This document shows positions 14,500-63,309 of a stretch of 64,000 nt of DNA, piece after piece. The notes under the pieces were generated by a model. The model worked only from the letters and a program-made list of their open reading frames with translations, was not told the DNA's origin and ran no database searches. Origin of the DNA: Pseudooceanicola antarcticus (GTDB lineage Bacteria; Pseudomonadota; Alphaproteobacteria; Rhodobacterales; Rhodobacteraceae); assembly GCF_900215355.1 (NCBI RefSeq), contig NZ_OBEA01000010.1, positions 62,001 to 126,000 on the forward strand. Direction: 5' to 3'. The position numbers and the translations under genes are program-made. The first letter of the stretch is position 1; every line of letters starts with the position of its first letter.

Positions 14500-14530
14500 T
14501 TGACCTTCCAGCGGGAGATCAAGCTAAACA
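14500..14530 (+). promoter_or_regulatory. CueR-like promoter of the 14563-17291 operon
   Basis: TTGACC, 19 bases, then TAAACA. The left half TTGACCTTCCAG is identical to the copA promoter; the right half of the dyad is degenerate (GGGAGATC). It points to the small membrane protein and the ScsB-like reductase. Confidence 0.6.
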
Positions 14531-14562
14531 GGATACGTTGACCAAAATCAGAGGTGGATTCC

Positions 14563-43757: not shown

Positions 43758-44062
43758 CCTGTATCGTCGTCAATGATGCGTCCTGCCTGATCGACCTGAA
43801 GAAGGGAGAGTTGCTGCACGTCCTGCTGCGGCTGCCCTATCGGTTCATCGTGCCCCTGCCCATCCGTGAGGAGGAGCTCCTCGACTTCACGGCGCAGGAA
43901 TGGCGGATGCTCGAAGATGGTGGCCTTGCCACCTATGATCTGCCGGGCGAAGAGGTCGCGCGGGTTTTCGCACTGAAGGGGAGTGGACAAAACATGGGGG
44001 TCATGCGGCGCGTTTTCTGTTTGCGACGGTCAGCCGACCATCGAGAACTGCGGCCCTTGTGA
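43754..44062 (+). pseudogene. PIN-like protein truncated by an insertion sequence
   Basis: The first 75 codons read IVVNDASCLIDLKKGELL and further PIN-domain-like sequence with the early Asp. At 43978 the element begins, and the frame continues 28 codons into it before a stop. The downstream part, including later catalytic Asp residues, is lost. It was paired with the XRE-ImmA gene. Confidence 0.75.
43979..44004 (+). repeat. Left terminal inverted repeat of the IS
   Basis: 26 bases, identical to the reverse complement of the right end. The transposase stop codon lies inside it. Confidence 0.9.
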
Positions 44063-45362: not shown

Positions 45363-45413
45363 GGCAGCCCCACACGCAAAGAACTCACCTTAGCACGGGC
45401 CGCAACGACGAAG

Positions 45414-45439
45414 ATGACCCCCATGTTTTGTCCACTCCC
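45414..45439 (-). repeat. Right terminal inverted repeat of the IS
   Basis: 26 bases, perfect inverted match to the left end. Its last base provides the G of the stop codon of the neighbouring transglutaminase gene. Confidence 0.9.
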
Positions 45440-46041
45440 TAGAAGGCGTCGGGCGTATCGTACACGCCGAAATCTTGCACGATGCCGGTTTTCTGAATGT
45501 AGGTATCTTCTCCGTTCCAGGCGACGGGAGGTGCGCCAAGGCAATCTGTGCCCGCGCCATAACCGCAGAGACTGTCCGTGTCCGAGAACGATCTTTGCAG
45601 GACTTCGAAGAAAGCGTCATCCAGGATGAAGCCTTCAAGGTTGATCCAGGCCCCTTGAAATTCGATCTCTACCCACGAATGGAGAATTTCCTCTGGAGCA
45701 AGCGGATACACCAACTCTGGGACAACACCGCGCTGCAAGCCTTTGTGGATCGTAAACCCATGCAACCGGCAACGAACGCCAACACCACGCAGCAGCGCCA
45801 TTAAGAGCGTGCCTTTCGTATTGCACTGCCCGTAGCCGTCGGAAAGTACCTCGGATGCGGGGATGTCGTCAGCTCGATTGTATCCGAACGAGATTTCATT
45901 TCGAACGAAATCATAGGCAGCTCCGATCCGATCGTATTCGGATAAGTCGCGCCAGCTGCGGCTCTCTATTAGATGCGCAAGAGGCGCGGCATCAAAATCC
46001 AGTAGTTTGGTGGGTGCAAGTAGGGGGTTGGTTATCTGCAA
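45439..46041 (-). CDS. Transglutaminase-like protein, C-terminus cut by the IS
   Basis: A 200-residue protein with a transglutaminase/protease-like core: catalytic Cys in GYGQCNTKGTLLMALL, His in ILHSWVEIEF and Asp-containing NLEGFILDD. The stop codon TAG is completed by the first base of the insertion sequence, so the natural C-terminus is missing. It is the gene just downstream of a MerR-type promoter with a 19-bp spacer, linking it to the divalent-metal regulon. Confidence 0.8.
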   Translation of the reverse strand: MQITNPLLAPTKLLDFDAAPLAHLIESRSWRDLSEYDRIGAAYDFVRNEISFGYNRADDIPASEVLSDGYGQCNTKGTLLMALLRGVGVRCRLHGFTIHKGLQRGVVPELVYPLAPEEILHSWVEIEFQGAWINLEGFILDDAFFEVLQRSFSDTDSLCGYGAGTDCLGAPPVAWNGEDTYIQKTGIVQDFGVYDTPDAF

Positions 46042-46070: not shown

Positions 46071-46101
46071 AGACTAGTCTCTATAGTTACTGCAGCTTCA
46101 A
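46071..46101 (-). promoter_or_regulatory. ZntR/CadR-type promoter of the transglutaminase gene
   Basis: On the - strand: TTGAAG, 19 bases, TAGTCT, spacer dyad CTGCAGTAACTATAGAG. Same geometry as the three other sites near 47800, 58304 and 59510. Confidence 0.6.
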
Positions 46102-46130
46102 CCCCTTCTTTTAGAAACGATCTCTCGCAA

Positions 46131-46739
46131 CTACTTGTCCGTGTGAACTGCTTTGTGGTGTTCACCGTGTGCGTCGCGTAGGATATTGACGCCGCCCCAG
46201 GCCGCGATCCCGGCGATAATCACACCGACGACTAGGTCGGGCCAGTTCGTTCCCAGCCAGGCAACGAGGCCACCTGCGACCACGATTCCGAGGTTTGCCG
46301 CAAAGTCGTTCCAGCTGAAAGTATTGGCCGCGCGGATGTTGACGTCCGGATCTTTGAGCCGAGCGAGCAACCAGACACAAACTGAGTTGATGGCCGCCGC
46401 GCTCAGCGCCATGACGATCATAACGGTGCCAAGGGGATCCGACCCACCGACATAGCGGCGCCAAGCATCATAAAGGATCCCGATGGCGAACACGATCAGC
46501 AAGCAGCCCGAGACATTCGCCGCACCACGTTTCCATTTCGCAGACCGCGACAATGCAAACAGACTGATTGCGTAGACCAAGCTGTCTGAAAGGTTGTCGA
46601 GCCCGTTTGCGATCAGGGCACTGGAATCCCCGAAGGCCCCGGTCGCAAAAAAGGCCATGGCAAGACCCACGTTTAGACCGAGAACAATCCAAAGGGTGCG
46701 TCTTTCGCTTGCTCCTTTTCCTGCAGTCATACTTCCCAT
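46131..46739 (-). CDS. Cation diffusion facilitator family transporter
   Basis: About 202 residues with six hydrophobic helices. The metal-site helix reads SSALIANGLDNLSDSLVYA with Asp residues in the CDF positions, and the later helix has NIRAANTFSWNDFAANLGIV. CDF proteins export Zn, Co or Cd. It lacks the large C-terminal domain, so it is a short form. Two starts are possible: a TTG 9 codons upstream and the ATG chosen. It is downstream of a YnfA-like gene after a 170-base gap. Confidence 0.85.
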   Translation of the reverse strand: MGSMTAGKGASERRTLWIVLGLNVGLAMAFFATGAFGDSSALIANGLDNLSDSLVYAISLFALSRSAKWKRGAANVSGCLLIVFAIGILYDAWRRYVGGSDPLGTVMIVMALSAAAINSVCVWLLARLKDPDVNIRAANTFSWNDFAANLGIVVAGGLVAWLGTNWPDLVVGVIIAGIAAWGGVNILRDAHGEHHKAVHTDK

Positions 46740-46937
46740 TCCGCTTGGTCGACTATGATCCTTCAACCTCTCGGGCAGATCAGAGTTCCGGATTGATTAA
46801 TAATGGTCAGTTCCATTTACGACCGCCGGGAGCTGTCAGTCAGGCGTCTCAACCAAAGTAGAGTATAGCCCTTTTTATGGGGCGATGAGATCGCGATTTG
46901 AGACGGTTTCAAGTTCAAACCATAAAGTTCAATTGGT

Positions 46938-47264
46938 TCATGGCGCGGCCAGTATTATAGCTGCGCCGAGCAAGCAAACGGCTGTGCCAAGCGTATCCCA
47001 CCTGTCCGGTCTGTGACCCTCTGCAAGCCACATCCACAGTATCGAAGCCGCAATGTAGACTCCGCCATAGGCGGCAAACGCGCGGCCCGCAGCAACCGTT
47101 TCGACTTGCGCCAGAAGCCACCCGAATACCACCAAGGCTACAATACCGGGTACGAGCCAGGCCGCGGATGCGCCGAGGCGCCACCAACTCCAGATCGCGA
47201 AACACCCGGCGATCTCGGCCAAGGCCGCAAGCGGATAGGCAAGCGCGGCAGGCATCTCAGGCAC
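46938..47264 (-). CDS. YnfA/UPF0060 family membrane protein, second copy
   Basis: A 108-residue four-helix protein with [29 protein letters not shown] and EGHRPDRWD, clearly related to the copy at 8305-8625. It overlaps the end of the MerR gene by 8 bases, so it is co-expressed with the metal sensor. Confidence 0.9.
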
Positions 47265-47685
47265 CGATCTCGTCGTGTTCGGTCAAACATTCGGAATGAT
47301 CCCGCAACACCTCAAGCACCTTGCAATCGGCGGTACGTCCACCGCTGCATTCGTGAACCATGCGTTTCAGTTCGGTGCGCAGCGCCTTCAGACGGGCCAT
47401 GCGCTGCTCCACCTGCTTTAGCTGGCGACGCGCAATCGCGTCGACTTCTTCGCAGGGCCGATTGGGCTGGTCGCTGAGGTCGAGCAGCTCGCGGATCGCA
47501 TCAAGCGAGAAGCCGAGTTGTCGCGAATGGCGGATGAAGGACAGTCGGTCGAGCTGTGCATTGTCATAGCGCCTCTGTCCGCCTTCAGTCCGGCCAGGTT
47601 CGGGCATGAGCCCGATCTGCTCGTAGTACCGAATGGTCTGCACCTTTGTGCCGGTCTTCTTTGACAGAGTGCCGATCGTGAGCAT
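47257..47685 (-). CDS. MerR-family divalent-metal sensor (ZntR/CadR/PbrR-like)
   Basis: A 142-residue MerR activator: helix-turn-helix [20 protein letters not shown], then Cys78 in NRPCEEVD at the position where CueR has Ser, and the loop CSGGRTADC with Cys113 and Cys121 plus Cys133. The Cys at 78 is diagnostic for divalent sensors (Zn, Cd, Pb, Hg). I start at the ATG after GGAGG. Four sites with CTCTAG-type dyads are its likely targets. It leads a regulator, YnfA and CDF run. Confidence 0.9.
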
Positions 47686-47789
47686 CTTCGCCTCCATGAA
47701 AAGTTACAGTCTGTGTAGGTTTTGCCGCCTCAATAGACAAGTGCCGGATTCACAGACGCGTGAGTTTAAGCCACAACGTGATTTCGCGC

Positions 47790-47820
47790 TTGAACCTCTA
47801 GTAGCTAGAGGATGCAAACG
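47790..47820 (+). promoter_or_regulatory. ZntR/CadR-type promoter of the SCO-DsbB operon
   Basis: TTGAAC, 19 bases, CAAACG, with dyad CCTCTAGTAGCTAGAGG across the start of the spacer. Divergent from the MerR gene. Confidence 0.7.
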
Positions 47821-47856
47821 CGACAATAATCAAGAATCAAAATCAGGCGCGCAGGT

Positions 47857-48459
47857 TTGTCCCTTACATCGGCACAGAAATTTCTTTGGGTTTTGGCAGG
47901 CGTCGCGTCGCTTGCCTTCGTATGGCTTTTGCTCTGGTCGGACTATCGCGCTGACCGCGCCCGAACCGACAACGATCCAGCGTTTGTCGCTGCATTCGAA
48001 TTGACGGACCACCAAGGTGTGGTTCGCACGGAAGAAGACTTTTCGGGGCGTTGGATGTTGGTATTTTTCGGCTTCAGCAACTGCCCCGATGTCTGCCCGA
48101 CGACACTGTCTGAGGTCGCGGCGGTGATGGACGGTCTGGGCGACAATGCCGCGAGGGTCCAGCCGATTTTCATAACCATCGACCCCGAACGGGACACGCC
48201 CATGGCACTCGCCGAATTCGTTCCGCTGTTCGATGCGAACATCATCGGGCTGACAGGTACGCCCGAACAGATCGCCGCTACATCCGAAACGTTTCCGATC
48301 TTCTTTGAACGCATCGAAGAGGCTACAGCTCCGGATGGCTACACAATGGGCCACACGTCACATCTGTTTCTATTCGATCCCGAGGCAGGCTTTGCAGACT
48401 CATGGCCCTATGGCACGTCCGCTGAAGAGATTCTCGCCGATCTGGAAGAGAGGATCTGA
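47857..48459 (+). CDS. SCO-family copper chaperone, first copy
   Basis: A 200-residue membrane-anchored thioredoxin-fold protein with the copper site CPDVCPTTL near residue 76 and the conserved His in MGHTSHLFLFD. SCO proteins deliver copper to the CuA centre of cytochrome oxidase. The start is TTG with an AGG-containing upstream; no ATG fits. First gene of a long operon with DsbB, DsbA, PCu(A)C and a second SCO. Confidence 0.88.
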   Translation: MSLTSAQKFLWVLAGVASLAFVWLLLWSDYRADRARTDNDPAFVAAFELTDHQGVVRTEEDFSGRWMLVFFGFSNCPDVCPTTLSEVAAVMDGLGDNAARVQPIFITIDPERDTPMALAEFVPLFDANIIGLTGTPEQIAATSETFPIFFERIEEATAPDGYTMGHTSHLFLFDPEAGFADSWPYGTSAEEILADLEERI

Positions 48460-48464
48460 CCGAC

Positions 48465-48887
48465 ATGAACCGCGTACCCGCAGAAACCGCCCTCGGGCTG
48501 GCATGGATCGTTGCCCTCGTCGCCTCGCTTGCTGTACTTTTCATCGGCGAAGTGATGGGGCAGACACCCTGCGTGCTGTGCTGGTTCCAGCGCGCCTTCA
48601 TGTTCCCGCTCGCGATCATTCTCGGCCTCGGCCTTTGGTGGCGAGACGGCAGCGTCGGGCGCTATGGCATCGCTCTGGCGCTTGGTGGTGGCGTGGTCGC
48701 CCTGTGGCACATGGGCCTCTACGCGGGCCTGATCCCCGAACGCATCCAGCCCTGCACGGCCACCGGCCCCTCTTGCACCGATGATAACCAATTGGTCTTC
48801 GGCATTCCGATCCCGCTGATGGCGCTGGTCGCCTTCGCACTGATCGGGTTCCTGTCGGCACTTTCATTGAAGGAAACACAAACATGA
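48465..48887 (+). CDS. dsbB: Disulfide-bond formation protein DsbB
   Basis: A 140-residue four-helix membrane protein with the two Cys pairs CVLC (residues about 36-39) and CTATGPSC. It reoxidises DsbA using quinone. It overlaps the DsbA-like gene by 4 bases. Confidence 0.9.
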   Translation: MNRVPAETALGLAWIVALVASLAVLFIGEVMGQTPCVLCWFQRAFMFPLAIILGLGLWWRDGSVGRYGIALALGGGVVALWHMGLYAGLIPERIQPCTATGPSCTDDNQLVFGIPIPLMALVAFALIGFLSALSLKETQT

Positions 48888-49543
48888 ATCGACGCGGCTT
48901 AATCCTGTCCGTTCTCGCCCTCGGCGTTGCCGGTTTCGGCGGAGCCACTTGGTACGCGACTCGCCCCGGCCCCGCGGCCGAAGCAAAAACCGTTGCGCCG
49001 GAACTCGCGGACGCGATGATCCGCTCTTACTCGCCCATCCTCGGACCTGCCGACGCGCCCGTCACGATTGTCGAATTCTTTGACCCGGCCTGCGAGGCTT
49101 GCCGCGCCTTCCATCCGATCGTGAAGGACATCATGGCACAGCATGGAGATGCCGTCCGCGTCGTTGTCCGCTACACCGCGTTTCATGGCGAGGCATCCGA
49201 GGAAGCGATCCGCGTGCTCGAGGCAGCACGCATGCAAGGCGTTTACGAGCCGGTGCTCGAAGCCGTTCTGCGGGATCAGCCGAGATGGGCGTCGCACGGC
49301 GCGCCTGAGCCCGGTCTGATCCTCCAGATCGCCGCCACTGCCGGACTCGATGCAGAGGCCGCGCGCACGCAAATGCTGGCACCGGATGTCGTTGCGATCC
49401 TGAATCAGGATCGTGCGGACGTCGAAACCGTGGGAGTTCGCCAGACTCCTACTTTCTTTGTAAACGGCAAGTCGCTCGATCCATTCGGGGAGGCAGAACT
49501 GCGTCGATTAGTGGCCGCGGAAGTTGCCGCCGTGCAAAGCTGA
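48884..49543 (+). CDS. DsbA-family disulfide oxidoreductase
   Basis: A 219-residue membrane-anchored thioredoxin-fold protein with active site CEAC in EFFDPACEACRAFH and the cis-Pro loop VRQTPTFFVNG. Partner of the DsbB encoded just before it. The pair would oxidise Cys in periplasmic metal proteins. Confidence 0.9.
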   Translation: MNRRGLILSVLALGVAGFGGATWYATRPGPAAEAKTVAPELADAMIRSYSPILGPADAPVTIVEFFDPACEACRAFHPIVKDIMAQHGDAVRVVVRYTAFHGEASEEAIRVLEAARMQGVYEPVLEAVLRDQPRWASHGAPEPGLILQIAATAGLDAEAARTQMLAPDVVAILNQDRADVETVGVRQTPTFFVNGKSLDPFGEAELRRLVAAEVAAVQS

Positions 49544-49566
49544 ATGGAAAAGGCAGGACCAAAACG

Positions 49567-50034
49567 ATGAAAAAGATTATTATGACGGGCACACTGGCCG
49601 CGCTCTTGACCTTTGGAGGGCTCTCAGTACCCGCACTAGCCGGACCCGTGGATGTCGTCGTCGAAAGCGCCTGGTCCCGCGCCTCCATAGGGATGAACCG
49701 CCCCGGGGCCGTCTACATGACGATCCGCAACACTGGCGACGAGCCGGTGACGCTGATTGGTCTTTCAACACCCCTCGCGATGATGCCCGAGATCCACGAG
49801 ACGAAGACCAATGCCGAAGGTGTGAGTTCCATGAGCGCGGCAGGTGAGATCGCGATCGCCCCGGGCGAGAGCGTCGCGCTTGAGCCGGGCGGCCTCCACG
49901 CGATGTTGATGCGGCTACAACAACCCATGACGGAAGGGGAAACCTTTCCGCTGACCCTACTTTTTGTCGACGGGGGCGAGGTGACAGTCGAGGTGCCGAT
50001 CCTTGGCATCGCCGCACGCGGACCGGAAGACTAA
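49567..50034 (+). CDS. PCu(A)C periplasmic copper chaperone
   Basis: A 155-residue exported protein with the PCu(A)C copper motif: His in MPEIHETKT, then Met, then HAMLM about 40 residues later. PCu(A)C gives Cu(I) to SCO proteins and the CuA site. It lies between two SCO genes and overlaps the second SCO start by one base. Confidence 0.93.
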   Translation: MKKIIMTGTLAALLTFGGLSVPALAGPVDVVVESAWSRASIGMNRPGAVYMTIRNTGDEPVTLIGLSTPLAMMPEIHETKTNAEGVSSMSAAGEIAIAPGESVALEPGGLHAMLMRLQQPMTEGETFPLTLLFVDGGEVTVEVPILGIAARGPED

Positions 50035-50660
50035 TGCGACGAAGGACGATCGCAGGATACGGCGCGGCCGGTGCCGGTGCAATTGCCTTGACGCTCTTCG
50101 TCGGTTGGTGGCGGGTCGACGGACCCGGTGCGCCCGAACCTATTGAGCAGCGGCCTATGGCTCTGACCGAGATGGATTTCCGCCTGACTGACCATGAAGG
50201 CAACGAGGTCGGGCCGGAAACCCTGATCGGGCGACCGACGATGGCGTTCTTCGGTTTCACTTACTGCCCCGATGTCTGCCCGACCACGCTCTCGGACATT
50301 TCAGGTTGGCTCGACGATTTAGGAGACGAAGCCAAACAGCTGAACGTGGTTTTCATCACGGTCGATCCCGAGCGCGATACCGTCGAGGCGATGGCAGAAT
50401 ATGTCAGTTATTTCCACCCAGCGATCCGCGGCTGGACGGGACCGGAGGGGCAGATTGCGCGCATCGCGGACGGCTTCCGCGCTGCCTACGAGCGGGTGCC
50501 CACGGAAGGCGGCGACTACACGATGAACCACACGGCCAGCGTCTTCCTGTTCGGTGCCGCTGGACGGTTCGTCACCATGATTGACTATCATGAACCGAGG
50601 GAATTCGCGGTACCGAAGATCCGCCGCGCGTTGGAAGAAGAAACGGAGGGAGCGACATGA
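50034..50660 (+). CDS. SCO-family copper chaperone, second copy
   Basis: A 208-residue membrane-anchored protein with CPDVCPTTL near residue 78 and the His in YTMNHTASVFLF. The PCu(A)C-SCO pair is the usual cytochrome oxidase copper-insertion unit. It overlaps the M23 peptidase gene by 4 bases. Confidence 0.92.
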   Translation: MRRRTIAGYGAAGAGAIALTLFVGWWRVDGPGAPEPIEQRPMALTEMDFRLTDHEGNEVGPETLIGRPTMAFFGFTYCPDVCPTTLSDISGWLDDLGDEAKQLNVVFITVDPERDTVEAMAEYVSYFHPAIRGWTGPEGQIARIADGFRAAYERVPTEGGDYTMNHTASVFLFGAAGRFVTMIDYHEPREFAVPKIRRALEEETEGAT

Positions 50661-52030
50661 GGCTCAGAACTTTTGCGGCAGGTGTCGCGCTTGCGGGGAC
50701 CGTTTCGGGGGCGGCTATCGCATTCTTCGATGTTCTGTCGAAAGAACCCGTGCCGCCAGAACTTGCCCAGGCAGGTAGCTGGATGCCCCAGCGTCCTGAA
50801 GCTCCCCGGAGCCTGGATATTCCGTTGTCGCTGCCAGCTACGGCGTGGGCGGAAGATACACCCCGCCTCGGCCCCTTGCCCCTGCTGCAGGCCGCTGTTG
50901 TTGACAGGCCGATGCAGGCGATCGAACCGCCCCTGTTGACTTGGTCTCGCGACATATCTTCTGGTGAAACGCTCGACTCCTTGCTTTCCGAAGCCGGTCT
51001 TGCGGGAGCCGACCGGGCGGAAGTCGCCCTTGCGCTTGGCGCGGAATACGATCTGCGACGGTTGCGGCCGGGGAATTCGGTCACTGTTGTTTCGACTATG
51101 GATGGCAGCCCCCGCACCGTCTCGCTCGCCGTCGAGGACGGGGTGCGGATCGAGGTGCTTTTTGGCGAGCAGGTGTCCACGCAGGTCGTGGCGCCGGATC
51201 CGGAGATCGTAACCCTTGCTGGGGAGGCCGTGATCGACACCTCGATCTTCGCGGCACTCGACAATGCCGGCATCCCCGCCCGATTTGCCGTGGACCTTGC
51301 GCAAATGCTGGGTGGAACCGTGGATTTCCGCCGTGAGATGGCTGGAGGCGAGACACTAAGGCTTCTCTGGCGCGAGACGCGCGTCGGCGATGACAAGATC
51401 GGACAGCCGGACCTCGCCTTCGCCGCACTGGAAATCGGCGATTCGCTTTACGAGATCGTTTGGCCGGACGACGGCAGCGGTCAGGCGACGATCTACGTCG
51501 ATGGCGAGGTGCTTCGCGTCTTTGCACAGCCGGTCGAGGGCGCGCGCCTCAGCTCGGTGTTCGGGCGCCGCACACATCCGGTCTACGGAAACGTCCGGAT
51601 GCACACCGGCGTCGATTTTGCCGCGGCAAGCGGGACGCCGGTACGGACGACGGCACCGGGCCGGGTCAGCTTCATCGGCTGGCGAGGCGGCTATGGACGC
51701 GTGGTCGAAATCTCCCACGGCTCCGAGACCATGACGCGCTACGCGCATCTCAGCGCCGTGCCGGAGGGCCTATCACAGGGCCAACGCGTGGCGGCGGGAG
51801 ATGTGATCGGCCGCGTTGGCGCAACCGGCACAGCGACAGGTCCCAACCTGCACTACGAAGTCCTCGTAGATGGGCGTCCGACTGACCCTCTCTCTGACGA
51901 CCGGCTCGCAGAAGCCGCAGAGAAAGAGGTGGATGATACCGCCGCGCTGTTGCGTCTGACCGAGGCGCGCGCGCTTCTGACTGAAAACCTTGACAGCGAA
52001 ATTGCCCAGACGACAACCGAAAGGCTCTGA
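50657..52030 (+). CDS. M23-family murein endopeptidase
   Basis: A 457-residue exported protein with N-terminal signal, a LysM/OapA-like region and a C-terminal LytM domain: HTGVDFAA (zinc His and Asp) and HYEVLVDGRPTDPL. The catalytic HxH is present in MTRYAHLS and LHYEV. It would trim peptidoglycan. Position between SCO and DUF411 genes suggests envelope remodelling under metal stress. Confidence 0.88.
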   Translation: MRLRTFAAGVALAGTVSGAAIAFFDVLSKEPVPPELAQAGSWMPQRPEAPRSLDIPLSLPATAWAEDTPRLGPLPLLQAAVVDRPMQAIEPPLLTWSRDISSGETLDSLLSEAGLAGADRAEVALALGAEYDLRRLRPGNSVTVVSTMDGSPRTVSLAVEDGVRIEVLFGEQVSTQVVAPDPEIVTLAGEAVIDTSIFAALDNAGIPARFAVDLAQMLGGTVDFRREMAGGETLRLLWRETRVGDDKIGQPDLAFAALEIGDSLYEIVWPDDGSGQATIYVDGEVLRVFAQPVEGARLSSVFGRRTHPVYGNVRMHTGVDFAAASGTPVRTTAPGRVSFIGWRGGYGRVVEISHGSETMTRYAHLSAVPEGLSQGQRVAAGDVIGRVGATGTATGPNLHYEVLVDGRPTDPLSDDRLAEAAEKEVDDTAALLRLTEARALLTENLDSEIAQTTTERL

Positions 52031-52033
52031 CCC

Positions 52034-52489
52034 ATGAAACGCATGACCCAAGCTCTGACCATCGCGCTCGCCCTGTTCCCGGCGGCCCAGGCCCTCGCAG
52101 AGGCAACAGCGATAGACGTCCGCAAGACCAACGGATGCGGCTGCTGCCTGTCCTGGATGAACCATCTCGAGGAAAACGGATTCGCGCCGACGGGCGAGAA
52201 CATGTTTGGCGGGTCGCTGGTTCGTTTCAAGCTCGACAACGGCGTGCCGCAGCGCATGGTCTCCTGCCATACCGCGCTCATAGAGGGCTACGTGATTGAA
52301 GGCCATGTCCCGGCCGCTGATATCCGCCGCCTTCTTGAGGAACGCCCGGACGCCGTCGGCCTCGCCGTTCCGGGAATGCCCTATGGCTCGCCCGGCATGG
52401 GGCCGGAAGAAAACCGTGAAGCTTATGATGTCTTCCTCATCCGCGAGGACGGGTCGACCGAAGTCTTTTCAAGCTACGCCGAAGGATAA
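52034..52489 (+). CDS. DUF411 copper-binding protein (CopG-like)
   Basis: A 151-residue exported protein with the DUF411 signature KTNGCGCCLSWMNHLEENGF and later VSCHTALIEGYVIEGHVPA. The CGCC site binds copper. Such proteins, sometimes called CopG, are found in many copper and silver loci. It starts 3 bases after the M23 stop. Confidence 0.9.
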   Translation: MKRMTQALTIALALFPAAQALAEATAIDVRKTNGCGCCLSWMNHLEENGFAPTGENMFGGSLVRFKLDNGVPQRMVSCHTALIEGYVIEGHVPAADIRRLLEERPDAVGLAVPGMPYGSPGMGPEENREAYDVFLIREDGSTEVFSSYAEG

Positions 52490-52501
52490 TCTGGCCCGCT
52501 T

Positions 52502-53284
52502 ATGGAAAACCTGTCTCCGATAATGCTCGGCTTTCTCGGAAGCCTTGCCGCCGGATCGCTCACGGCAGTCGGAGCAATTCCCGTGCTGTTCGGGCGCATC
52601 CCGTCGCGGGCGACGCGCGATCTGTCGCTCGGCTTCGCTGCCGGCGTCATGCTCTCAGCCTCGTTCTTTTCTCTGATCATCCCGGCATTGGATGCGGCGG
52701 AGCCGATGTTCGAAAACGGCGCGATGCCTGCGGCCATCGTTTGCGTCTCGATCCTTTTGGGCATGGGGGCCGTTGCATTGATGAATGAAAGGCTGCCGCA
52801 CGAGCATTTCAGAACGGGACGCGAAGGGCCCGAAGCGGCGTCCTTACGGCGGGTCTGGCTGTTCATCATCGCGATCACGATCCACAACTTCCCCGAAGGC
52901 CTCGCGGTCGGAGTTGGCTTCGGTTCCGGAGGTATGGAGGGCGGTCTGCCACTCGCTATCGGCATCGGGCTTCAGAATGCGCCTGAAGGGCTGGCCGTCG
53001 CGGTATCCCTGTTGGGCGAAGGATATCCGAAGCTGCGCGCATGGGGCATCGCCGCGCTAACGGGCATGGTCGAGCCGATTGGCGGTTTGCTCGGGGCGGG
53101 CATCATCACACTGTCGGAACCGCTGCTGCCATGGGGCTTGGCCTTTGCCGCAGGCGCCATGCTCTATGTCATCAGCCACGAAATCATCCCCGAAACCCAT
53201 CGCAGCGGCCATCAGAACAAGGCAACGCTCGGCTTGGCCGTCGGGCTCGTTTTGATGCTTTTTCTCGATGTTTGGTTGGGGTGA
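52502..53284 (+). CDS. ZIP-family metal transporter
   Basis: A 260-residue, eight-helix transporter with the ZIP metal site HNFPEGLAVGVGF and EPIGGLLGAG, of the GufA-like group. ZIP proteins move Zn or other divalent ions into the cytoplasm. In a resistance island an importer is surprising; it may act with the chaperones to supply metal or run in the opposite direction. Coupled to lspA within 4 bases. Confidence 0.88.
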   Translation: MENLSPIMLGFLGSLAAGSLTAVGAIPVLFGRIPSRATRDLSLGFAAGVMLSASFFSLIIPALDAAEPMFENGAMPAAIVCVSILLGMGAVALMNERLPHEHFRTGREGPEAASLRRVWLFIIAITIHNFPEGLAVGVGFGSGGMEGGLPLAIGIGLQNAPEGLAVAVSLLGEGYPKLRAWGIAALTGMVEPIGGLLGAGIITLSEPLLPWGLAFAAGAMLYVISHEIIPETHRSGHQNKATLGLAVGLVLMLFLDVWLG

Positions 53285-53288
53285 CGCA

Positions 53289-53771
53289 ATGCCAGTGCAT
53301 AAACTATCTCCGGTGATCGGTATTTTTGCGGCGCTTACCGCTTTCGTAATCGATCAGATCACAAAAGCCATTGTTGTGGCGAATGCGGCCTCCTTAAGCA
53401 CTGGAATCGCCGTGTTTCCAGGTTTTAACCTTGTCTTTTATCGCAATGATGGCGTCACTTTCGGACTACTTGGCGGCGCACCATGGTGGAGCCTCATAGC
53501 TCTCGCTCTTGCCATCTGCGGCTGGCTGGGGGTTATGCTGTTTCGCGCCGAAAATGCGGTTGAAACGCTCGCTTACGGAGCGATCATCGGTGGGGCCTTG
53601 GGCAATGTCTTTGATCGTGTGCGGTATCGGGCTGTAACGGACTTCCTGGATTTCTACATCAACTCAACGCATTGGCCTGCCTTCAACATGGCCGATGTGT
53701 TTGTCGTCAGTGGCGTGGGGCTCTTGCTCGCCGCACCCTGGATCAGTGCGCGGCGTCCGATCAAGTCGTGA
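53289..53771 (+). CDS. lspA: Lipoprotein signal peptidase
   Basis: A 160-residue four-helix aspartyl peptidase with the catalytic Asp in VTDFLDFY and NMADVFVV and the GGALGNVFDR motif. It cuts prolipoproteins at the lipobox Cys. PbrC of the Cupriavidus lead locus is an LspA homologue, so a copy beside a Zn/Cd/Pb-type ATPase is consistent with a lead- or metal-resistance role. The stop overlaps the GTG of lnt. Confidence 0.92.
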   Translation: MPVHKLSPVIGIFAALTAFVIDQITKAIVVANAASLSTGIAVFPGFNLVFYRNDGVTFGLLGGAPWWSLIALALAICGWLGVMLFRAENAVETLAYGAIIGGALGNVFDRVRYRAVTDFLDFYINSTHWPAFNMADVFVVSGVGLLLAAPWISARRPIKS

Positions 53772-55345
53772 AGCCGGTAATTCTGAACTGCTTCGCTCTG
53801 CGCAAACGTCTGCTCTCGCGGATGACGCTTGGTTTCGCCGCCGGGGCGCTGACCGTTCTAACCTTCCCGCCTTTCTCGATTCTCCTGCTTGTTCCCGTTG
53901 CCTATTCTGCGTTGTTTGTCGGTCTTCGCGACCTCTCCTTCGGGCGTGCTTTTCTCGTCGGCTGGGCGTTTGGTCTCGGCCAGTTCGGTTTCGGGATTTC
54001 GTGGATCGCGGAAAGTTTCTACGTCGAGGCCGAGCGTTTCGGGGCGCTGGCGATCCCGGCCGTCGCGGGATTGTCCGCAGGTCTCGCGATTTTCCCGGCC
54101 ATTGCCGCCGTGCTCTTCGTCGAAATCGCGCGGCGCGGAGCCATGGGCAGTCTCCTGGCCTGCCTCCTGTTCGCGACCTCATGGACCGCGGCCGAGTGGT
54201 TGCGCGGTCACGTTCTGACAGGTTTTCCGTGGAACCTCGCCGGCTACGCTCTTGTTGATTACGCCGCCCTTCGCCAGCCCGCCGCCTGGGTGGGAAGTTA
54301 TGGGCTAAGCTTTCTCACCGTGTTCGTAGCGGCACTCCCCGGCGCGGCTCTCATGGCGGTCGGGCGACAACGATTGATCATCTCGCTCATGCCGCTGGCC
54401 GGCATCGTAACGATGTGGGCCATCGGCACGCTTCGCCTCCAGTCGGATGCACCACAGCCACCGGATGTCGACCTGCGCATCGTTCAGGGCAACGTACCCC
54501 AAGAGGAGAAATGGGCGCCCGAGAACCGCGAGGCGACCTTCGCGCGCTATATCGAGCTTTCAACCCAGCCCGGCGATTTCGACGTTCTTCTCTGGCCGGA
54601 AACTGCCTTTCCCGGTTTCCTCGATGAGGATGCCCAGGCGCGATCCCGTATCGCGGCTGCGCTTCCGGACGGCAGCGTGCTGCTCACCGGAGTGCCGGAC
54701 CGTGTACCGAGTGAGGATGGCACCCGATATTTCAACACCGTCCAGGCTTTTGACGATAACAGTGAGATCCTGACCGGATACGCGAAACACCATCTCGTGC
54801 CCTTTGGCGAATACACTCCATTCCGCGGCTGGTTGCCGATCGAGCGGCTGACAGCGGGGCTGGGCGATTTTACGCCTGGACCGGGCCTGCGAACGCTTGC
54901 GCTTCCGGGTGTGCCGCTGGTCGCCGTGGCGATCTGCTATGAGATCATCTTCCCAGGCCATGTGGTCGACGACCTGTTCCGACCCGACTGGATTTTTAAC
55001 GCGACAAACGATGCCTGGTTTGGAACCAGCATCGGACCCGAGCAGCATCTGGCTTCCGCACGTATGCGCGCCGTAGAGGAAGGCCTTCCTGTCATCCGAG
55101 CCGCGAATACGGGCATCTCTGCCGTCATCGACGCGAACGGAGAGATCGTTGCGCGGCTCGATACCGGGGAAAGGGGCATAGTCGACGCTGATCTTCCCTC
55201 TGCGCGGCCGCCTACGCCATATGCGCTTTTTGGGGACTGGATGTTGCTGGCGCTCATCTTGGCTTCGTGGAGCTGGGCTCTGGCGGCCAATGCGACGGCT
55301 AACTACCGCCGCATGAGAAAGACCGTCATGCATAGATGTGGATAG
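53768..55345 (+). CDS. lnt: Apolipoprotein N-acyltransferase
   Basis: A 525-residue inner-membrane enzyme. It has six to seven N-terminal helices and a nitrilase-type domain with Glu in LWPETAFP, Lys in YAKHHLVPFGEYTPF and Cys in VAICYEIIFP. It adds the third acyl chain to lipoproteins. I take GTG at the lspA stop (GTGA overlap). Together with lgt at 25943 the window carries a full set of lipoprotein maturation enzymes. Confidence 0.9.
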   Translation: MKPVILNCFALRKRLLSRMTLGFAAGALTVLTFPPFSILLLVPVAYSALFVGLRDLSFGRAFLVGWAFGLGQFGFGISWIAESFYVEAERFGALAIPAVAGLSAGLAIFPAIAAVLFVEIARRGAMGSLLACLLFATSWTAAEWLRGHVLTGFPWNLAGYALVDYAALRQPAAWVGSYGLSFLTVFVAALPGAALMAVGRQRLIISLMPLAGIVTMWAIGTLRLQSDAPQPPDVDLRIVQGNVPQEEKWAPENREATFARYIELSTQPGDFDVLLWPETAFPGFLDEDAQARSRIAAALPDGSVLLTGVPDRVPSEDGTRYFNTVQAFDDNSEILTGYAKHHLVPFGEYTPFRGWLPIERLTAGLGDFTPGPGLRTLALPGVPLVAVAICYEIIFPGHVVDDLFRPDWIFNATNDAWFGTSIGPEQHLASARMRAVEEGLPVIRAANTGISAVIDANGEIVARLDTGERGIVDADLPSARPPTPYALFGDWMLLALILASWSWALAANATANYRRMRKTVMHRCG

Positions 55346-55838
55346 GCGTTCCGTCCTTCACCATTGCATAGATGTCCTCGATCTGCCGATCTGTGACCGC
55401 GATGCAGCCAGCTGTCCAGTCGCGGATGTCCGTCGGGTCGATGCCGGGGCGTGGACCACCATGGATGAAGATGTCGCCGCCGGGGGAAAGGCCCTGCGCT
55501 TCGGCAAAGGCGATGTCGGCCTCATTCGGATAAGAGATGCCAACTGAAAGATGATACGTACTTTCAGGGTTGCGCTTATCGACTATGTAGGTGCCCTCCG
55601 GGGTCCGACCGTCTCCCTCGAATTGCTTGTGACCCTGAGGAGCGAAGCCCAGCCCGATCGGATAGGTTTGCAGCACGCGATCGGATCCGTCGAGAACAAG
55701 CAAACGCTGTCCCTTGTAGAGCCGAAGTCGCGTCACTTCGGGTCCGTCATAGCTGCGGAACTTGCCGGCACAGCCCGACAAAAAGGCCGCTAAGCCACCC
55801 AACAGGACGGCGCGGCGGGGAAATCGGATGGTTTTCAC
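55326..55838 (-). CDS. L,D-transpeptidase (YkuD), second of three
   Basis: A 170-residue lipoprotein-like YkuD enzyme: lipobox AFLSGCAG, then the core with FIHGGP and DWTAGCIAVTDRQIEDIY (catalytic His and Cys). GTG start with AGAGG upstream. Its 3' end overlaps the lnt 3' end by 20 bases in the opposite direction. It lies downstream of the Zn/Cd ATPase on the same strand, 63 bases away. Confidence 0.9.
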   Translation of the reverse strand: MKTIRFPRRAVLLGGLAAFLSGCAGKFRSYDGPEVTRLRLYKGQRLLVLDGSDRVLQTYPIGLGFAPQGHKQFEGDGRTPEGTYIVDKRNPESTYHLSVGISYPNEADIAFAEAQGLSPGGDIFIHGGPRPGIDPTDIRDWTAGCIAVTDRQIEDIYAMVKDGTPIHIYA

Positions 55839-55901
55839 TGCTCGATGCCTCTTTCGTGAGGTCTGATATGGAAATAATGTTACCTTGCAAATGCCGCGTG
55901 A

Positions 55902-58256
55902 TCAATGTCCGTGGGCAAGCGCGGCCTTTGCGATCTGTGGCCCAACCTGCTCGCCACCGGACGGCGGTGCCTTGGCCTCTTGGCTGTTGAGCAGGCGCAG
56001 GGCGTTCGCCACCACCAGCAATGACACACCCACGTCGGCTGCAATAGCGCCCCACATCGATGCCATTCCGAACGCGGTAGCGACAACGAAAACTCCCTTG
56101 GTCGCCAAGGAAATACCGATGTTCTGATGGATAATCGACATTGTCCGGCGCGAATGACCGATCAGCCAAGGCACCTTGCCGAGGTCGTCGGTCATAAGGG
56201 CAATGTCCGCCGTCTCGATTGCCGCGTCAGAACCAACCGCACCCATCGCGATGGCATAATGCGCGCGCGCCATTGCGGGTGCATCGTTCACCCCGTCGCC
56301 GATCATGGCAACCATGTCGTGAGTTTTGACCAGGTCTTCGATGGCTGTCACCTTGTCTTCGGGCAGAAGCTCAGCGCGCACCTCGTCGATACCGACCTCG
56401 GCGGCAACGGCGCGCGCTGTTCGCTCGTTGTCACCGGTCAGCATGACGATGGTCTTCACGCCCTGCGCGTGAAGTTGCGCCACGATGCCCTTGGCATCAG
56501 GGCGGATGCGATCGCGCAGTTCAAGAATGCCCGTCACACCGGATTCATCGCCGACAGCGACAAGGGTGCTGCCGGCGCCTTCGATCCGCTCCCGCAGATC
56601 CTTCGGAATGGCGTCGCCGAAACCCTTCTCCTCGGCAAACCGGTCCGACCCCAGCCAGATCGACCGTCCGTCAGTGCGTCCTTCAAGTCCCCTGCCGGGA
56701 ATGGTGCGGGTATCCTCTGCGGCGGACACCTTGACGCCGTCGGCCTCCGCCCGCGCGAGAATGGCACGCGCCAAAGGGTGCGACGAACGTGCCTCCAGTC
56801 CTGCGGCGAGGGTCATCAGATCTTGCGCTGAAGCCCCGCCCAGCGGGTGCACCGCCGCCACTTCCGGCTGGCCCATGGTGATTGTGCCGGTCTTGTCCAT
56901 GGCCAGCGCCGTCGTCCTGCCCGGCGCCTCTACATAGGCACCGCCCTTGATGAGGACGCCCGCCCGCGCCGAAGCGGTGAGCGCTGCGACGATGGAGACA
57001 GGGGTCGAGATGACCAGAGCACATGGGCAAGCGATCACCAGCAGCACGAGGGCATTGTAGAACCAGTAATCCCAGGCTCCGCCGAAGATAAGCGGCGGCA
57101 GTAGCGCAATTGCGACGGCGAGAGCCATGACGATAGGCGTGTAGATGCGGGCGAACTTTGCCACCCACTGTTCCACGGGCGCGCGGCGGGCATGAGCGTC
57201 GCCGACCATGCGGATGATCTTGGCCAAGACGGTATCCGAGGCGGCCTTCGTGGCGCGCACCGTTAGTGTACCTTCGCCGTTGATCGTGCCCGCATAGACC
57301 TCGTCTCCGGTCTCTTTGGGTATCAAAGCACTTTCGCCGGTGATCGGCGCCTGGTCGACCGCGCCCGCGCCACCCGTCACCAGGCCGTCGAGCGGGATAC
57401 GGTCGCCACCGCGTACAATAAAGCTTGAGCCTACGGCGACTTGCGCCGCCGGCATGTCGGTCTCGCTTCCGTCATCGCGGATCACGCGCGCGGTGGGTGG
57501 CGCAAGATCCAGGAGCGCCGACACCGCATTCCGCGCGCGCCCAACGCTCCAGCTTTCGAGAAAGAGGGACAGCGAAAAGAAAAAAGCCACTGTCGCTGCC
57601 TCGAAGAATTCACCGAGCCCGATGGCTCCGGCGACTGCGACAACCATCAGCAGGTTCATGTCGGGCGACAGCCGACGTGCGGACGACCATGCCTTCGGTG
57701 CCACAAGCCAAACGCCGAATAGGATAGCAACTGCAAAAAGCCCTGCCTCGGCCAGCGGCATCGGCGCTTCGCCGTGCCCCGCGAAGAGGCCGAGCGCCCC
57801 GCCCATACCTGTCTCGACGATGTGCCAGAGAAAACCCGCCGCCCAGAAGCCGCCGCTGAGAGCCGTAAACAGCCGCTGTCGTGCAAGATGGGCCGCTTGG
57901 TCGACCGACGCGTTCTCGGCATTCCACGGCTTCGCGGTCATGCCGGTGCTCGCGACAAGTTCCGCAACTTCGTCGTCCGATACACTCTTTGCGCTGTCGA
58001 GAATGGTCATCCTCCCGTTGATCACATCGAACGCGAGATGCTCGGCCCCGCCGATCTGCGGGCCGATTACCTTATTCAAGATCGCGACCTCCTCGGCGCA
58101 ATCGAGGCCGGACACCTGAAAACTGCGCCCGCCGGTTGGGGCGGGCGTCGTCGGTGCGATGTCGCCGCACGTTCCGGCGCTACCACAGCAACTGCCGCCG
58201 CTTGCCTGGGCATCTTCGGCGTGATCGTGATCGTGGCGGTGGGTGTCGGACGGCAT
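55902..58256 (-). CDS. Zn/Cd/Pb-type P1B-2 ATPase
   Basis: A 784-residue metal pump. The N-terminus is His-rich (HRHDHDHAEDA) with a CC and GTC cluster and a degenerate HMA region (SGLDCAEEV). The core has LVIACPCALVIST near residue 414, DKTGTITMG near 454 and [10 protein letters not shown] near 653. In the last helix ADVGVSLLVVANALRLL carries the Asp typical of P1B-2 pumps (ZntA/CadA/PbrA). Promoter is a ZntR/CadR-type site directly upstream. Confidence 0.94.
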   Translation of the reverse strand: MPSDTHRHDHDHAEDAQASGGSCCGSAGTCGDIAPTTPAPTGGRSFQVSGLDCAEEVAILNKVIGPQIGGAEHLAFDVINGRMTILDSAKSVSDDEVAELVASTGMTAKPWNAENASVDQAAHLARQRLFTALSGGFWAAGFLWHIVETGMGGALGLFAGHGEAPMPLAEAGLFAVAILFGVWLVAPKAWSSARRLSPDMNLLMVVAVAGAIGLGEFFEAATVAFFFSLSLFLESWSVGRARNAVSALLDLAPPTARVIRDDGSETDMPAAQVAVGSSFIVRGGDRIPLDGLVTGGAGAVDQAPITGESALIPKETGDEVYAGTINGEGTLTVRATKAASDTVLAKIIRMVGDAHARRAPVEQWVAKFARIYTPIVMALAVAIALLPPLIFGGAWDYWFYNALVLLVIACPCALVISTPVSIVAALTASARAGVLIKGGAYVEAPGRTTALAMDKTGTITMGQPEVAAVHPLGGASAQDLMTLAAGLEARSSHPLARAILARAEADGVKVSAAEDTRTIPGRGLEGRTDGRSIWLGSDRFAEEKGFGDAIPKDLRERIEGAGSTLVAVGDESGVTGILELRDRIRPDAKGIVAQLHAQGVKTIVMLTGDNERTARAVAAEVGIDEVRAELLPEDKVTAIEDLVKTHDMVAMIGDGVNDAPAMARAHYAIAMGAVGSDAAIETADIALMTDDLGKVPWLIGHSRRTMSIIHQNIGISLATKGVFVVATAFGMASMWGAIAADVGVSLLVVANALRLLNSQEAKAPPSGGEQVGPQIAKAALAHGH

Positions 58257-58288
58257 GAACGGACCTCTGGATTCGGGTGCTTTGTCAT

Positions 58289-58319
58289 GACATAGCCCCT
58301 ACAGTAGCTAGAGCTTCAA
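58289..58319 (-). promoter_or_regulatory. ZntR/CadR-type promoter of the P1B-2 ATPase
   Basis: On the - strand: TTGAAG, 19 bases, TATGTC, spacer dyad CTCTAGCTACTGTAGGG. Confidence 0.75.
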
Positions 58320-58438
58320 GAGAAAAGTTCGGTGGTATTTCCGTTTGTTTTCTTGCTAGACGGTCCGACGACAGCCTCAATCACGGCGTGAGGCATAAAG
58401 AGCCGATACTAAGAAAAACAGAAAGGAAAGGAAACTCG

Positions 58439-58723
58439 ATGCAGGTTTTGATGCTGAAGCAAAAAATGATGGTTGCGGTGGCGCTTTTGCTCACGACAGG
58501 ATGCGCCATCCAGCCGACAGGGCCGAACGACACGGCAGACCAGACGGGCAACGTTCCCGAAGCTGTGGTTGCGATGGCTGCTCCGGATCAGGATGTTGCA
58601 ACCGCGCGCCTCGTGCCGGAAGACGGCTGCTATTGGTACGAACATAGCGGGCCGGTCGAAACGACGCTGCTGCCGTTGCGCACGGCGAACGGTAATCCGA
58701 TCTGCGTGGCACGCGAAGCTTGA
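58439..58723 (+). CDS. Small lipoprotein
   Basis: A 94-residue protein with lipobox LLTTGCAIQ, a Cys-containing C-terminal half (EDGCYWYEHSGPVETTLLPL) and an AAGGAAAGGAAA ribosome site. Not recognised. It stands alone between the ATPase promoter and a convergent L,D-transpeptidase gene. Confidence 0.6.
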   Translation: MQVLMLKQKMMVAVALLLTTGCAIQPTGPNDTADQTGNVPEAVVAMAAPDQDVATARLVPEDGCYWYEHSGPVETTLLPLRTANGNPICVAREA

Positions 58724-58771
58724 GGACGCGCCACACGTTGGATCAACGCGCCTCAGACCTACGCACCACAC

Positions 58772-59434
58772 TCAACTTCGCGCGGTGACACTGTCCTCCG
58801 CCGAGTACAAATGTGCCGTCGATTCGATCTCAACGTTGGGATAAAGTTCGTTAATGTGAGCCATGACCATCCGCACGCAACCCGAACTGGCTCGACCGCC
58901 GATACTTCTCGGATAGGGCGTGCCGTGTATTCGAAGATAAGTGTCGCGGTCTCCGACGTACAGATAGATGGCTCGTGATCCCAAAGCGTTTTCGGGGCCG
59001 GGTTCCATCCCGTCGGCCCATCGTGCGTTTTCCGGATCCCGCTCGATCATGTTCTGGGTCGGTGTCCAATGCGGCCACCTCACCTTGCGTTTGATCGTGT
59101 AGACCCCAGGCTCATATAGGTTGCCCCGGGCAATGGCCACACCGTAGCGCATTGCGGTCCCGCTCTCCTCGATATGATAGAGATACCGCGCGACCGCATC
59201 GACATGGATGTCTCCTGGCACGAGTCCGGGTTTCGCGACCACGCGCTGGGGCAAAAAGCGCGGGTGTAGGCCCCAAGGGTTTGACGTGGCCGGATCGAAT
59301 CCGGGCGGCGTGACTTGCGCGTCCCATTCAGCCTTCTGTGCCTCGGCGGGCCAGGTATCGGCCAACAGGGGGCTGGAAACAGACGCGGAGAATAGCGCCG
59401 TTGTTGTTTGAATGAAGTGTCGTCTTGTCAGCAT
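58772..59434 (-). CDS. L,D-transpeptidase (YkuD), third of three
   Basis: A 220-residue exported YkuD enzyme with LRIHGTPYPRSIGGRASSGCVRMVMAHINELY (His and Cys of the catalytic motif). Signal peptide ends SPLLA. Its promoter has the MerR-type 19-bp spacer with a CTCTAG dyad, so this copy appears directly metal-induced. Confidence 0.9.
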   Translation of the reverse strand: MLTRRHFIQTTTALFSASVSSPLLADTWPAEAQKAEWDAQVTPPGFDPATSNPWGLHPRFLPQRVVAKPGLVPGDIHVDAVARYLYHIEESGTAMRYGVAIARGNLYEPGVYTIKRKVRWPHWTPTQNMIERDPENARWADGMEPGPENALGSRAIYLYVGDRDTYLRIHGTPYPRSIGGRASSGCVRMVMAHINELYPNVEIESTAHLYSAEDSVTARS

Positions 59435-59494
59435 GTCTTACCCTTTCGGTTCCCACCAGAATCTATGGCAAGAACGGTATCTGTTCACTTTGAT

Positions 59495-59525
59495 TAGATA
59501 GGACTTCTAGTGGCTAGAGGTTCAA
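59495..59525 (-). promoter_or_regulatory. ZntR/CadR-type promoter of the third L,D-transpeptidase
   Basis: On the - strand: TTGAAC, 19 bases, TATCTA, spacer dyad CTCTAGCCACTAGAAG. Best-formed promoter of the second regulon. Confidence 0.82.
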
Positions 59526-59537
59526 GGACATATTTTC

Positions 59538-59732
59538 GTGAAAACACACGATCCTTGTGATCCGCAATTTACCATCCGCTACTACGAAAAGATCGGCGCG
59601 CCGCCCAGCCTGACCCGGCCTGTTCCCGAGACCACGGTTGCTGCAGAGTCAGATCCTGTCGAAGCTGGCTATGGAGGAAGGCCATATCGCCCGCTTCGCC
59701 TGAGCAGCGAACGGCAGTGTGGTGAACTTTGA
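59538..59732 (+). pseudogene. Possible MerR-family fragment
   Basis: The frame begins with residues including FTIRYYEKIG, the turn-and-wing start of a MerR DNA-binding domain, but the first helix is missing and the following sequence does not continue as MerR. It is divergent from the MerR-type promoter of the L,D-transpeptidase, the place where a MerR gene is expected. The stretch from here to 59918 holds nothing else convincing. Confidence 0.4.
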
Positions 59733-59972: not shown

Positions 59973-60764
59973 TTAACTGTGAGATTCGGCTGTCTTTGGT
60001 CCTGTGCTTCTGGCGCGCTGTTGCGCAACATGATCAACTGCGGCAAGCAGACGTGGCTCTCTCTCGAAGGCGCGCAACAGAGCAATTCTTACATAGTCGT
60101 CGGCACCGGCGCTGGATATGGCCGCTTTTATCAGCGGACGAGACTGGGCCGCAGCGATCGCCGCAAGGCAGAACAGCCTCACTTCCGGTCTGGGGCTCTG
60201 AAGAGCGAATAACGGATCCCCGCGGACGGCCTTGAGCGACATGCCAAAGGTGACCGCGCGCATCGCACGTCGAAGTAGGTTGGGGCGGTTTGACGTCGCT
60301 GCGTGCTCAAGCAGCCCTGCCCCGCAGCGCGCACGGTCTATCAGTTTTTCAGGCAACTTTTCGTCACCGGGCTTTGCGAGGCTCCGAACAAGTAGGGTCC
60401 CGCAAAATTGGCAATCAAATGCCCAGGATCGCCGCCAATGCCTGAGCGAGAGGCCGCGTCGGGAACACTCGGGGCAAGACTGGAAAGGAACTTGCGCTGT
60501 GAGCATCATCTCCATTTTCGTCATTGCCCTAAAAGTCATTGACTGCACGGTGTCGGGATCGACACGCGCAGCGATAGATATCTTTTCCGCATCGGCCGCC
60601 TCAACGTCGAAGTCCAGGGCGGCGCCATGTCGTGTATCGATCTCGATATGGGCCAGCAGTTCCGCGTCATTACAGTAGTTGGCCGCAGCCAGCCGAGACA
60701 ACCAACCTGACAACAACTCGTCTGGCAGCGGCGCGACAGTCTTTGGCAGCGGGCGCGGCTTCAC
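59973..60764 (-). CDS. tniQ: TniQ family protein
   Basis: About 263 residues with the N-terminal TniQ pattern PDELLSGWLSRLA and a zinc site SCPECSRRG / DCQFCGT. TniQ helps choose the target site. I take the GTG that overlaps the tniB stop (GTGA); the longer frame inside tniB is unlikely. Confidence 0.88.
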   Translation of the reverse strand: MKPRPLPKTVAPLPDELLSGWLSRLAAANYCNDAELLAHIEIDTRHGAALDFDVEAADAEKISIAARVDPDTVQSMTFRAMTKMEMMLTAQVPFQSCPECSRRGLSLRHWRRSWAFDCQFCGTLLVRSLAKPGDEKLPEKLIDRARCGAGLLEHAATSNRPNLLRRAMRAVTFGMSLKAVRGDPLFALQSPRPEVRLFCLAAIAAAQSRPLIKAAISSAGADDYVRIALLRAFEREPRLLAAVDHVAQQRARSTGPKTAESHS

Positions 60765-61642: not shown

Positions 61643-61643
61643 T

Positions 61644-63278: not shown

Positions 63279-63309
63279 CGATATCTGCCGCACAAGCCTG
63301 TGAACCCTG

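Follow-up and report, generated by a model that had tools for sequence, protein, structure and literature searches.

A putative plasmid-borne MerR regulon that joins metal export to cell-envelope genes in Pseudooceanicola antarcticus and its relatives

A stretch of 64,000 nucleotides from Pseudooceanicola antarcticus (positions 62001-126000 of contig C17, NZ_OBEA01000010.1, 126.7 kb, in a genome of 4.23 Mb and 17 contigs), hereafter the window, carries four putative promoters that share a CTCTAG-N3-CTAGAG dyad and precede metal-export and envelope genes. We consider it probable that a plasmid-borne MerR regulator of the divalent-metal branch controls a combined metal-export and envelope regulon through these dyads. 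That this predicted regulon includes a cell-wall enzyme, the L,D-transpeptidase LDTa, is well supported by sequence. The anatomy of the promoters, the specificity of their motif, its conservation across genomes and its co-occurrence with the regulator were observed directly.

The dyad sites are located at 46101, 47790, 58319 and 59525, each with a 19-bp spacer. The putative MerR-type promoter/operator of the SCO gene run (47790..47820, plus strand) reads TTGAAC-CTCTAGTAGCTAGAGGATG-CAAACG, matches the consensus TTGAANCTCTAGNNNCTAGAG with 0 mismatches and is divergent from the merR gene. The other three putative MerR-type promoter/operators are on the minus strand and belong to the LDTa gene (59495..59525; TTGAAC-CTCTAGCCACTAGAAGTCC-TATCTA; 1 mismatch), the Zn/Cd-type ATPase gene (58289..58319; TTGAAG-CTCTAGCTACTGTAGGGGC-TATGTC; 2 mismatches) and a transglutaminase-like gene (46071..46101; TTGAAG-CTGCAGTAACTATAGAGAC-TAGTCT; 3 mismatches). 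These are the best matches to TTGAANCTCTAGNNNCTAGAG in the window, where the only two further 3-mismatch matches arise when the 47790 and 59525 dyads are read on the reverse strand. In six copies of the window generated by a first-order Markov model, matches with up to 2 mismatches were absent; those with 3 averaged 0.17 per copy and those with 4 averaged 0.67. Taken alone, the site at 46101 is weak. In L142 and L145 (L-numbers label the loci of relatives), which carry relatives of its gene, the arms CTACAG..CTGTAG are fully self-complementary, yet 4 mismatches separate them from the consensus. The initial annotation had described four 19-bp-spacer promoters with a common TTGAA and a CTCTAG dyad distinct from that of CueR, and both points hold: the CueR-type dyads of the window, at 7905 and 22852, read TTCCAG..ACTGGAA, unlike the four sites, and precede two other open reading frames (ORFs) that were taken for P-type ATPases by reading. 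Its assignment of genes holds too, with two qualifications. The SCO/Dsb run, a Transglut_core gene, the Zn/Cd-type ATPase and a YkuD gene do lie downstream, but the transglutaminase-like gene is truncated at its 3' end and the SCO promoter has no TA at its -10.

The strict motif, TTGAASCTCTAGNNNCTRKAG, was found in 74 of 295 genomes of the same family, and the reversed pattern used as control in 0 of 295. We examined 91 distinct sites in fetched loci, which need not include every strict-motif match of the 295-genome scan. A TA starts exactly 19 bp after the -35 hexamer in 90 of them, and at spacings of 15-18 or 20 bp in none (0/91). At 31 sites the first downstream gene is related to the window ATPase gene, a share inflated by the fetching of many loci for LDTa or its neighbours; relatives of a CDF gene follow at 30 sites, of the transglutaminase-like gene at 12, of SCO1 at 9 and of the transpeptidase gene LDTc at 2, and 7 sites have an unassigned gene. 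The divergent gene encodes a MerR at 54 sites, among them every one of the 12 transglutaminase-like and the 9 SCO1 sites (that of the window counted). Of the ATPase relatives with 78% identity or more, 19 of 19 carry a site with no more than 2 mismatches, at 62-108 bp. The dyad thus lies within the promoter of an exporter gene at a spacing (19-20 bp) that marks the divalent-metal MerR branch. The layout of the sites is that of a MerR metal regulon.

The MerR-family regulator (47257..47697, minus strand; Pfam MerR_1 and MerR-DNA-bind) contains Cys78, Cys113, Cys121, Cys133 and His130, numbered from the internal start MLTIG. A cysteine at the position of CueR Ser77 is a mark of divalent-metal sensors, and Cys78 occupies this position; Cys113 and Cys121 correspond to the two cysteines that the same branch has in its C-terminal metal-binding loop. 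The closest solved structures are 5gpe, annotated as a MerR-family protein, and CadR, and with both of them Cys78, Cys113 and Cys121 align. Among the 54 divergent MerRs at dyad sites, Cys78 is present in 47, Cys113 in 51, Cys121 in 54, Cys133 in 53 and His130 in 54. The Cys78 reported in the initial annotation is confirmed, and judged by its residues the regulator is of the divalent type. A further MerR gene in the window, on the minus strand at about 5007-5198, encodes Ser at position 78 and neither His130 nor Cys133. Its product was called CueR-like because of Ser78 and the CueR-type dyads nearby, which agrees with the earlier proposal of a second MerR regulon apart from the CueR-type sites.

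It is very unlikely that CueR, responding to copper, binds the four sites instead of the Cys78 regulator. The copper-associated SCO and PCuAC genes would fit such an arrangement, and the CueR consensus that we used differs from the LDTa dyad at 4 positions. However, a divergent MerR gene accompanies 54 of the 91 sites and encodes Cys78 at 47 of these 54, the downstream genes are mostly those of Zn/Cd-type ATPases and CDF proteins, and the CueR-type sites of the window differ in sequence and precede two other P-type-ATPase-like ORFs.

We regard MerRs of the 47257 type as the probable cognate regulators because of these divergent sites and because all 31 genomes found with a dyad-bearing LDTa (28 in a first set and 3 in a second) have a MerR that shares 73% identity or more with that of the window, a co-occurrence that is partly due to physical linkage. 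Such a MerR was found in 6 of 47 genomes for which only dyad-less LDTa was fetched (0/16 in the first set, 6/31 in the second), these being hand-picked from genomes with LDTa fetched, some of which hold further LDTa copies left unfetched. The second set, of 3 dyad and 31 dyad-less genomes, was run at a cut-off of E 1e-50. Contig C5 of the same genome has one more perfect dyad, between a MerR gene and a CDF-like gene. This paralogue, divergent from its CDF gene, could be the main regulator in place of the C17 MerR, with cross-talk between the two, as its motif and cysteines are identical to those of the C17 MerR. We think this improbable, since the dyad-bearing LDTa is accompanied by the C17-type MerR in 31 of 31 genomes, even if linkage explains part of that number.

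LDTa (58772..59434, minus strand; PF03734, 1.8e-20) is a YkuD-domain protein with a twin-arginine-like start (TRRHFI) and the catalytic motif IHGTP...SSGCVRM, which conforms to the HG...S-x-GC-x-R pattern of L,D-transpeptidases. Its solved relative is 6v45 (2.2e-42). Enzymes of this kind form 3,3 cross-links or anchor proteins to peptidoglycan. The LD1,3-transpeptidase LDTGo is recognized by extra loops and an aromatic triad. The motif is invariant in 15 of 15 close rows of the alignment and its fixed-spacing pattern occurs in 79 of 86 rows; a twin-arginine-like RR.[hydrophobic] stands near the start in 83 of 86. An AlphaFold2 model built from the 15 close rows was too poor (mean pLDDT 40.9) and was set aside before fold search. 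Convergent to LDTa is a small predicted lipoprotein (58439..58723, plus strand, start read from the sequence). It matched no Pfam or NCBIfam family and has a conserved two-cysteine core, DxCYWYxHxGPVETTLLPLRTxxGxPIC; in 76 of 86 rows, LDTa has a relative of it no more than 1.2 kb away. The lipoprotein is a candidate substrate or partner of LDTa.

The window dyad lies 91 bp before the start of LDTa. An upstream site with at most 4 mismatches was found in 26 of 30 loci whose LDTa is 79-100% identical, and in 79 of 80 named loci with LDTa of at least 88% identity; the named loci and the 295-genome panel overlap in species, so that their counts are not independent. Dyad-to-LDTa distances in the named loci cluster around 90 bp and around 150 bp. 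The same 80 loci have a close ATPase relative nearby in 76 cases, the small convergent lipoprotein gene in 80 and the second transpeptidase-family gene, LDTb, in 55. We computed a quick maximum-likelihood tree from 86 LDTa rows and counted sites up to 5 mismatches; all 26 site-bearing rows fall in one 45-row clade (SH-aLRT 97), and no row outside it has a site (0/41). Random 250-bp windows from the same loci reached this threshold in 61 of 3000 cases, some of them being real sites. The conserved promoter and the MerR present in 31 of 31 dyad genomes support the suggestion that a cell-wall enzyme belongs to a MerR regulon.

Several observations weigh against control of such a regulon by this MerR. 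The regulator scores below the NCBIfam cut-offs for CueR, ZntR, CadR-PbrR and MerR alike, which leaves its metal identity less certain: 123.2 bits against 147.4 for CueR (TIGR02044), from which it also differs in having Cys78 and not Ser, 104.4 against 167.95 for ZntR (TIGR02043) and 116.7 against 151.45 for CadR-PbrR (TIGR02047). MerR and LDTa genes are often on one contig, which makes their co-occurrence not independent. A MerR lies within 6 kb of LDTa in only 1 of the 80 named loci, and that one is not more than 60% identical, so control would act from a distance; in the window the two genes are ~11 kb apart. Within the LDTa clade, 19 of 45 rows are without the dyad, including LDTa copies of 79-80% identity in L121, L122, L125, L128 and L137. 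The mean pairwise identity among 15 divergent LDTa upstream regions is 71% in the -35/dyad, 50% in the -10 hexamer and 29-30% in the flanks, but the regions were picked by the motif and an 85-95 bp distance, and only the -10 figure is independent of this choice. The SCO promoter of this strain carries an altered -10 (47815-47820), CAAACG, where close relatives have TAAACG or TATCCG, and is the sole one of the 91 sites without the TA. Finally, the position of the M23 peptidase, LspA and Lnt genes within the SCO run may be accidental.

The transpeptidase promoter could also be real and MerR-controlled while the enzyme has no role in metal tolerance, the island having captured a common transpeptidase-lipoprotein gene pair and a promoter by chance, as hitchhikers. 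LDTa homologues are indeed common (219 of 295 genomes, E up to 1e-20), and those outside the clade have no dyad, most of them still with the lipoprotein partner. We nonetheless find chance capture unlikely: the -10 hexamer, for which the regions were not selected, is more alike than the flanks, the site is kept in 79 of the 80 named loci, and LDTc, a separate transpeptidase lineage, also bears dyads in some relatives. Read most simply, the tree and loci suggest that a metal island acquired a widespread pair of transpeptidase and lipoprotein genes, which then came under the control of MerR; losses or replacements followed, 19 of the 45 clade rows being without the dyad. In L121, L122, L125, L128 and L137, LDTa-like genes occur as pairs on one strand (79-80% and 48-50% identity), and near those of L122, L125 and L128 are genes for a MerR (about 36%) and for an ATPase (about 35%) that is preceded by a CueR-like site. 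The site row of the 49% copy in L137 (listed distance 6647) derives from a wrong slice and is disregarded. A decayed MerR-like reading, TIRYYEKIG (59540-59720), divergent from LDTa, was found only in the two closest relatives, L132 and L133, and was not counted as part of the system.

The envelope genes extend beyond the L,D-transpeptidase named in the initial annotation, from which LDTb, M23, LspA and Lnt were absent. LDTb (55326..55838, minus strand; PF03734, 6.6e-18) has a lipobox-like LSGC and weak similarity to LdtF/DpaA. It begins 63 bp behind the ATPase gene, and no dyad of its own with at most 4 mismatches was found in 16 LDTb upstream regions. The third transpeptidase, LDTc (window 13836-14399), has relatives with strict sites in L057 and L186 and with a 2-mismatch site in L142. 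Weaker CueR-like sequences with 6 mismatches, a grade reached by 43 of 3000 control windows, stand by its relatives in L079, L080 and L116; upstream of the window's own LDTc there is neither a dyad nor a CueR-like sequence of that grade. A weak CueR-like sequence, TTGACCTTCCAGCGGGAGATCAAGC, with more than 5 mismatches, is on the plus strand in 14400-14650, between LDTc and a seemingly DsbD-like ORF.

The ATPase (55902..58256, minus strand) is of the Zn/Cd/Pb type (P1B-2) and scores 501.8 bits against the Cd-type heavy-metal ATPase model TIGR01512 (cut-off 313.5). On the same strand as merR are a CDF-like cation efflux protein (46131..46766, minus; PF01545, 8e-16) and a YnfA/UPF0060 protein (46938..47264, minus; PF02694, 1.7e-27) whose gene overlaps the end of merR. 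The SCO run, on the plus strand and assigned by Pfam, encodes SCO1 (SCO1/SenC), DsbB, DsbA, PCuAC and SCO2 (47857..50660), an M23 peptidase (50657..52030; PF01551, 6.5e-32) resembling MepM/ShyC DD-endopeptidases, with NCBIfam similarity under the cut-offs, and DUF411, ZIP, LspA and Lnt (52034..55345). From the spacing of its genes we infer that the run is one operon.

The transglutaminase-like protein (45439..46041, minus strand; PF01841, 1.7e-11) is 200 residues long, and its gene is cut at the 3' end by an insertion sequence. The gene ends at the edge of an IS-like element (43979-45439) with perfect 26-bp inverted repeats (43979-44004 and 45414-45439), which surrounds a transposase-like ORF recognized by reading. 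An intact counterpart of 251 residues, followed by a CDF gene, is found in the Phaeobacter piscinae plasmid pP71_b. Elsewhere, 12 strict sites precede such a gene, 12 of 12 divergent from a MerR, and the gene is a predicted regulon member across the family. The protein is probably cytosolic because no signal peptide was seen by eye. A search of solved structures found no match up to E = 1 and no NCBIfam family matched. Its proposed role as a cell-wall cross-linker was set aside on these three grounds, and no tie of the protein to the wall was found, which leaves this part of the initial annotation without support.

The island is shared with plasmids of other genera. The stretch 45440-59918 matches 114 plasmid records, 91 of which were typed as conjugative; in 68, one place covers at least 80% of it. 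The first 12 of the 114 matches, on plasmids of Phaeobacter, Leisingera and Pseudohalocynthiibacter, are 98.3-99.9% identical and cover 94-99% of the query. Adjoining the island end, at 59973-63293, are TniQ and TniB genes and a further transposase-like ORF.

Metal-bound MerR proteins untwist long-spacer (19-bp) promoters. In the proposed mechanism, the plasmid-borne CadR/PbrR/ZntR-like MerR would bind the CTCTAG-N3-CTAGAG dyads inside the 19-bp-spacer promoters and, with a thiophilic divalent metal (Zn, Cd or Pb) bound, activate them. Export and envelope genes would thereby be raised together. The export arm would consist of the Zn/Cd-type ATPase and CDF proteins. The envelope arm would consist of LDTa on its own dyad promoter, LDTb behind the ATPase, and the SCO run with Dsb, M23 and lipoprotein-maturation enzymes. 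From what is known of the family we infer the binding, the activation through a distorted long spacer, the identity of the metal and the co-transcription.

The system resembles CadR, PbrR and ZntR in Cys78 and the loop cysteines of its MerR, in the divergent merR-exporter layout, in the 19-bp spacer with a central dyad and in having a Zn/Cd/Pb-type ATPase among its main targets. It differs in that the MerR is under the NCBIfam equivalog cut-offs and has the conserved His130 and Cys133, and in that its predicted targets extend to a transpeptidase, a transglutaminase-like protein and a run of Dsb and lipoprotein-maturation genes. In pbr/cad operons the signal peptidase II LspA (PbrC) is next to the ATPase, whereas the window LspA is paired with Lnt within the SCO gene run. 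MerR-family activation is shared with the CueR regulon, whose type of dyad occurs elsewhere in the window, but the system discussed here has Cys78 instead of Ser and another dyad. Cpx of E. coli is a two-component envelope sensor whose regulon contains Dsb proteins, whereas the window system has a one-component cytosolic metal sensor. The two are alike in that an L,D-transpeptidase is induced by envelope stress in E. coli, where LdtD belongs to the Cpx regulon according to an excerpt of a published study (PMC12729407).

Metal-resistance regulons are usually described as a sensor and an exporter. Among the titles and abstract beginnings listed by searches of an open-access library, none reported a MerR metal regulon with an L,D-transpeptidase among its members. 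L,D-transpeptidases work with a catalytic cysteine. Inhibition of L,D-transpeptidation and of YcbB by copper is reported in an excerpt of a paper that cites earlier work for this (PMC6478713, citing Peters 2018). On these grounds, together with the placement of LdtD under Cpx, extra transpeptidases might replace metal-poisoned cysteine enzymes, or they might reinforce the wall or its outer-membrane tether. Tentatively, it is possible that in Rhodobacterales a cytosolic metal sensor commands an envelope programme of two transpeptidases, M23, lipoprotein maturation and Dsb, Cpx-like for thiophilic metals, which would supply fresh cysteine transpeptidases once the resident ones are poisoned. The copper inhibition reported in that excerpt would then be linked to a testable response in living cells. 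In many, mostly marine, bacteria the operator typical of Zn/Cd-type exporter genes also precedes an enzyme whose probable activity is cross-linking of the wall, and such bacteria probably rebuild their envelope on sensing a toxic metal. That one operator has been kept upstream of a peptidoglycan transpeptidase gene in numerous genera, frequently on plasmids, points to the cell wall as a target of metals that evolution protects.

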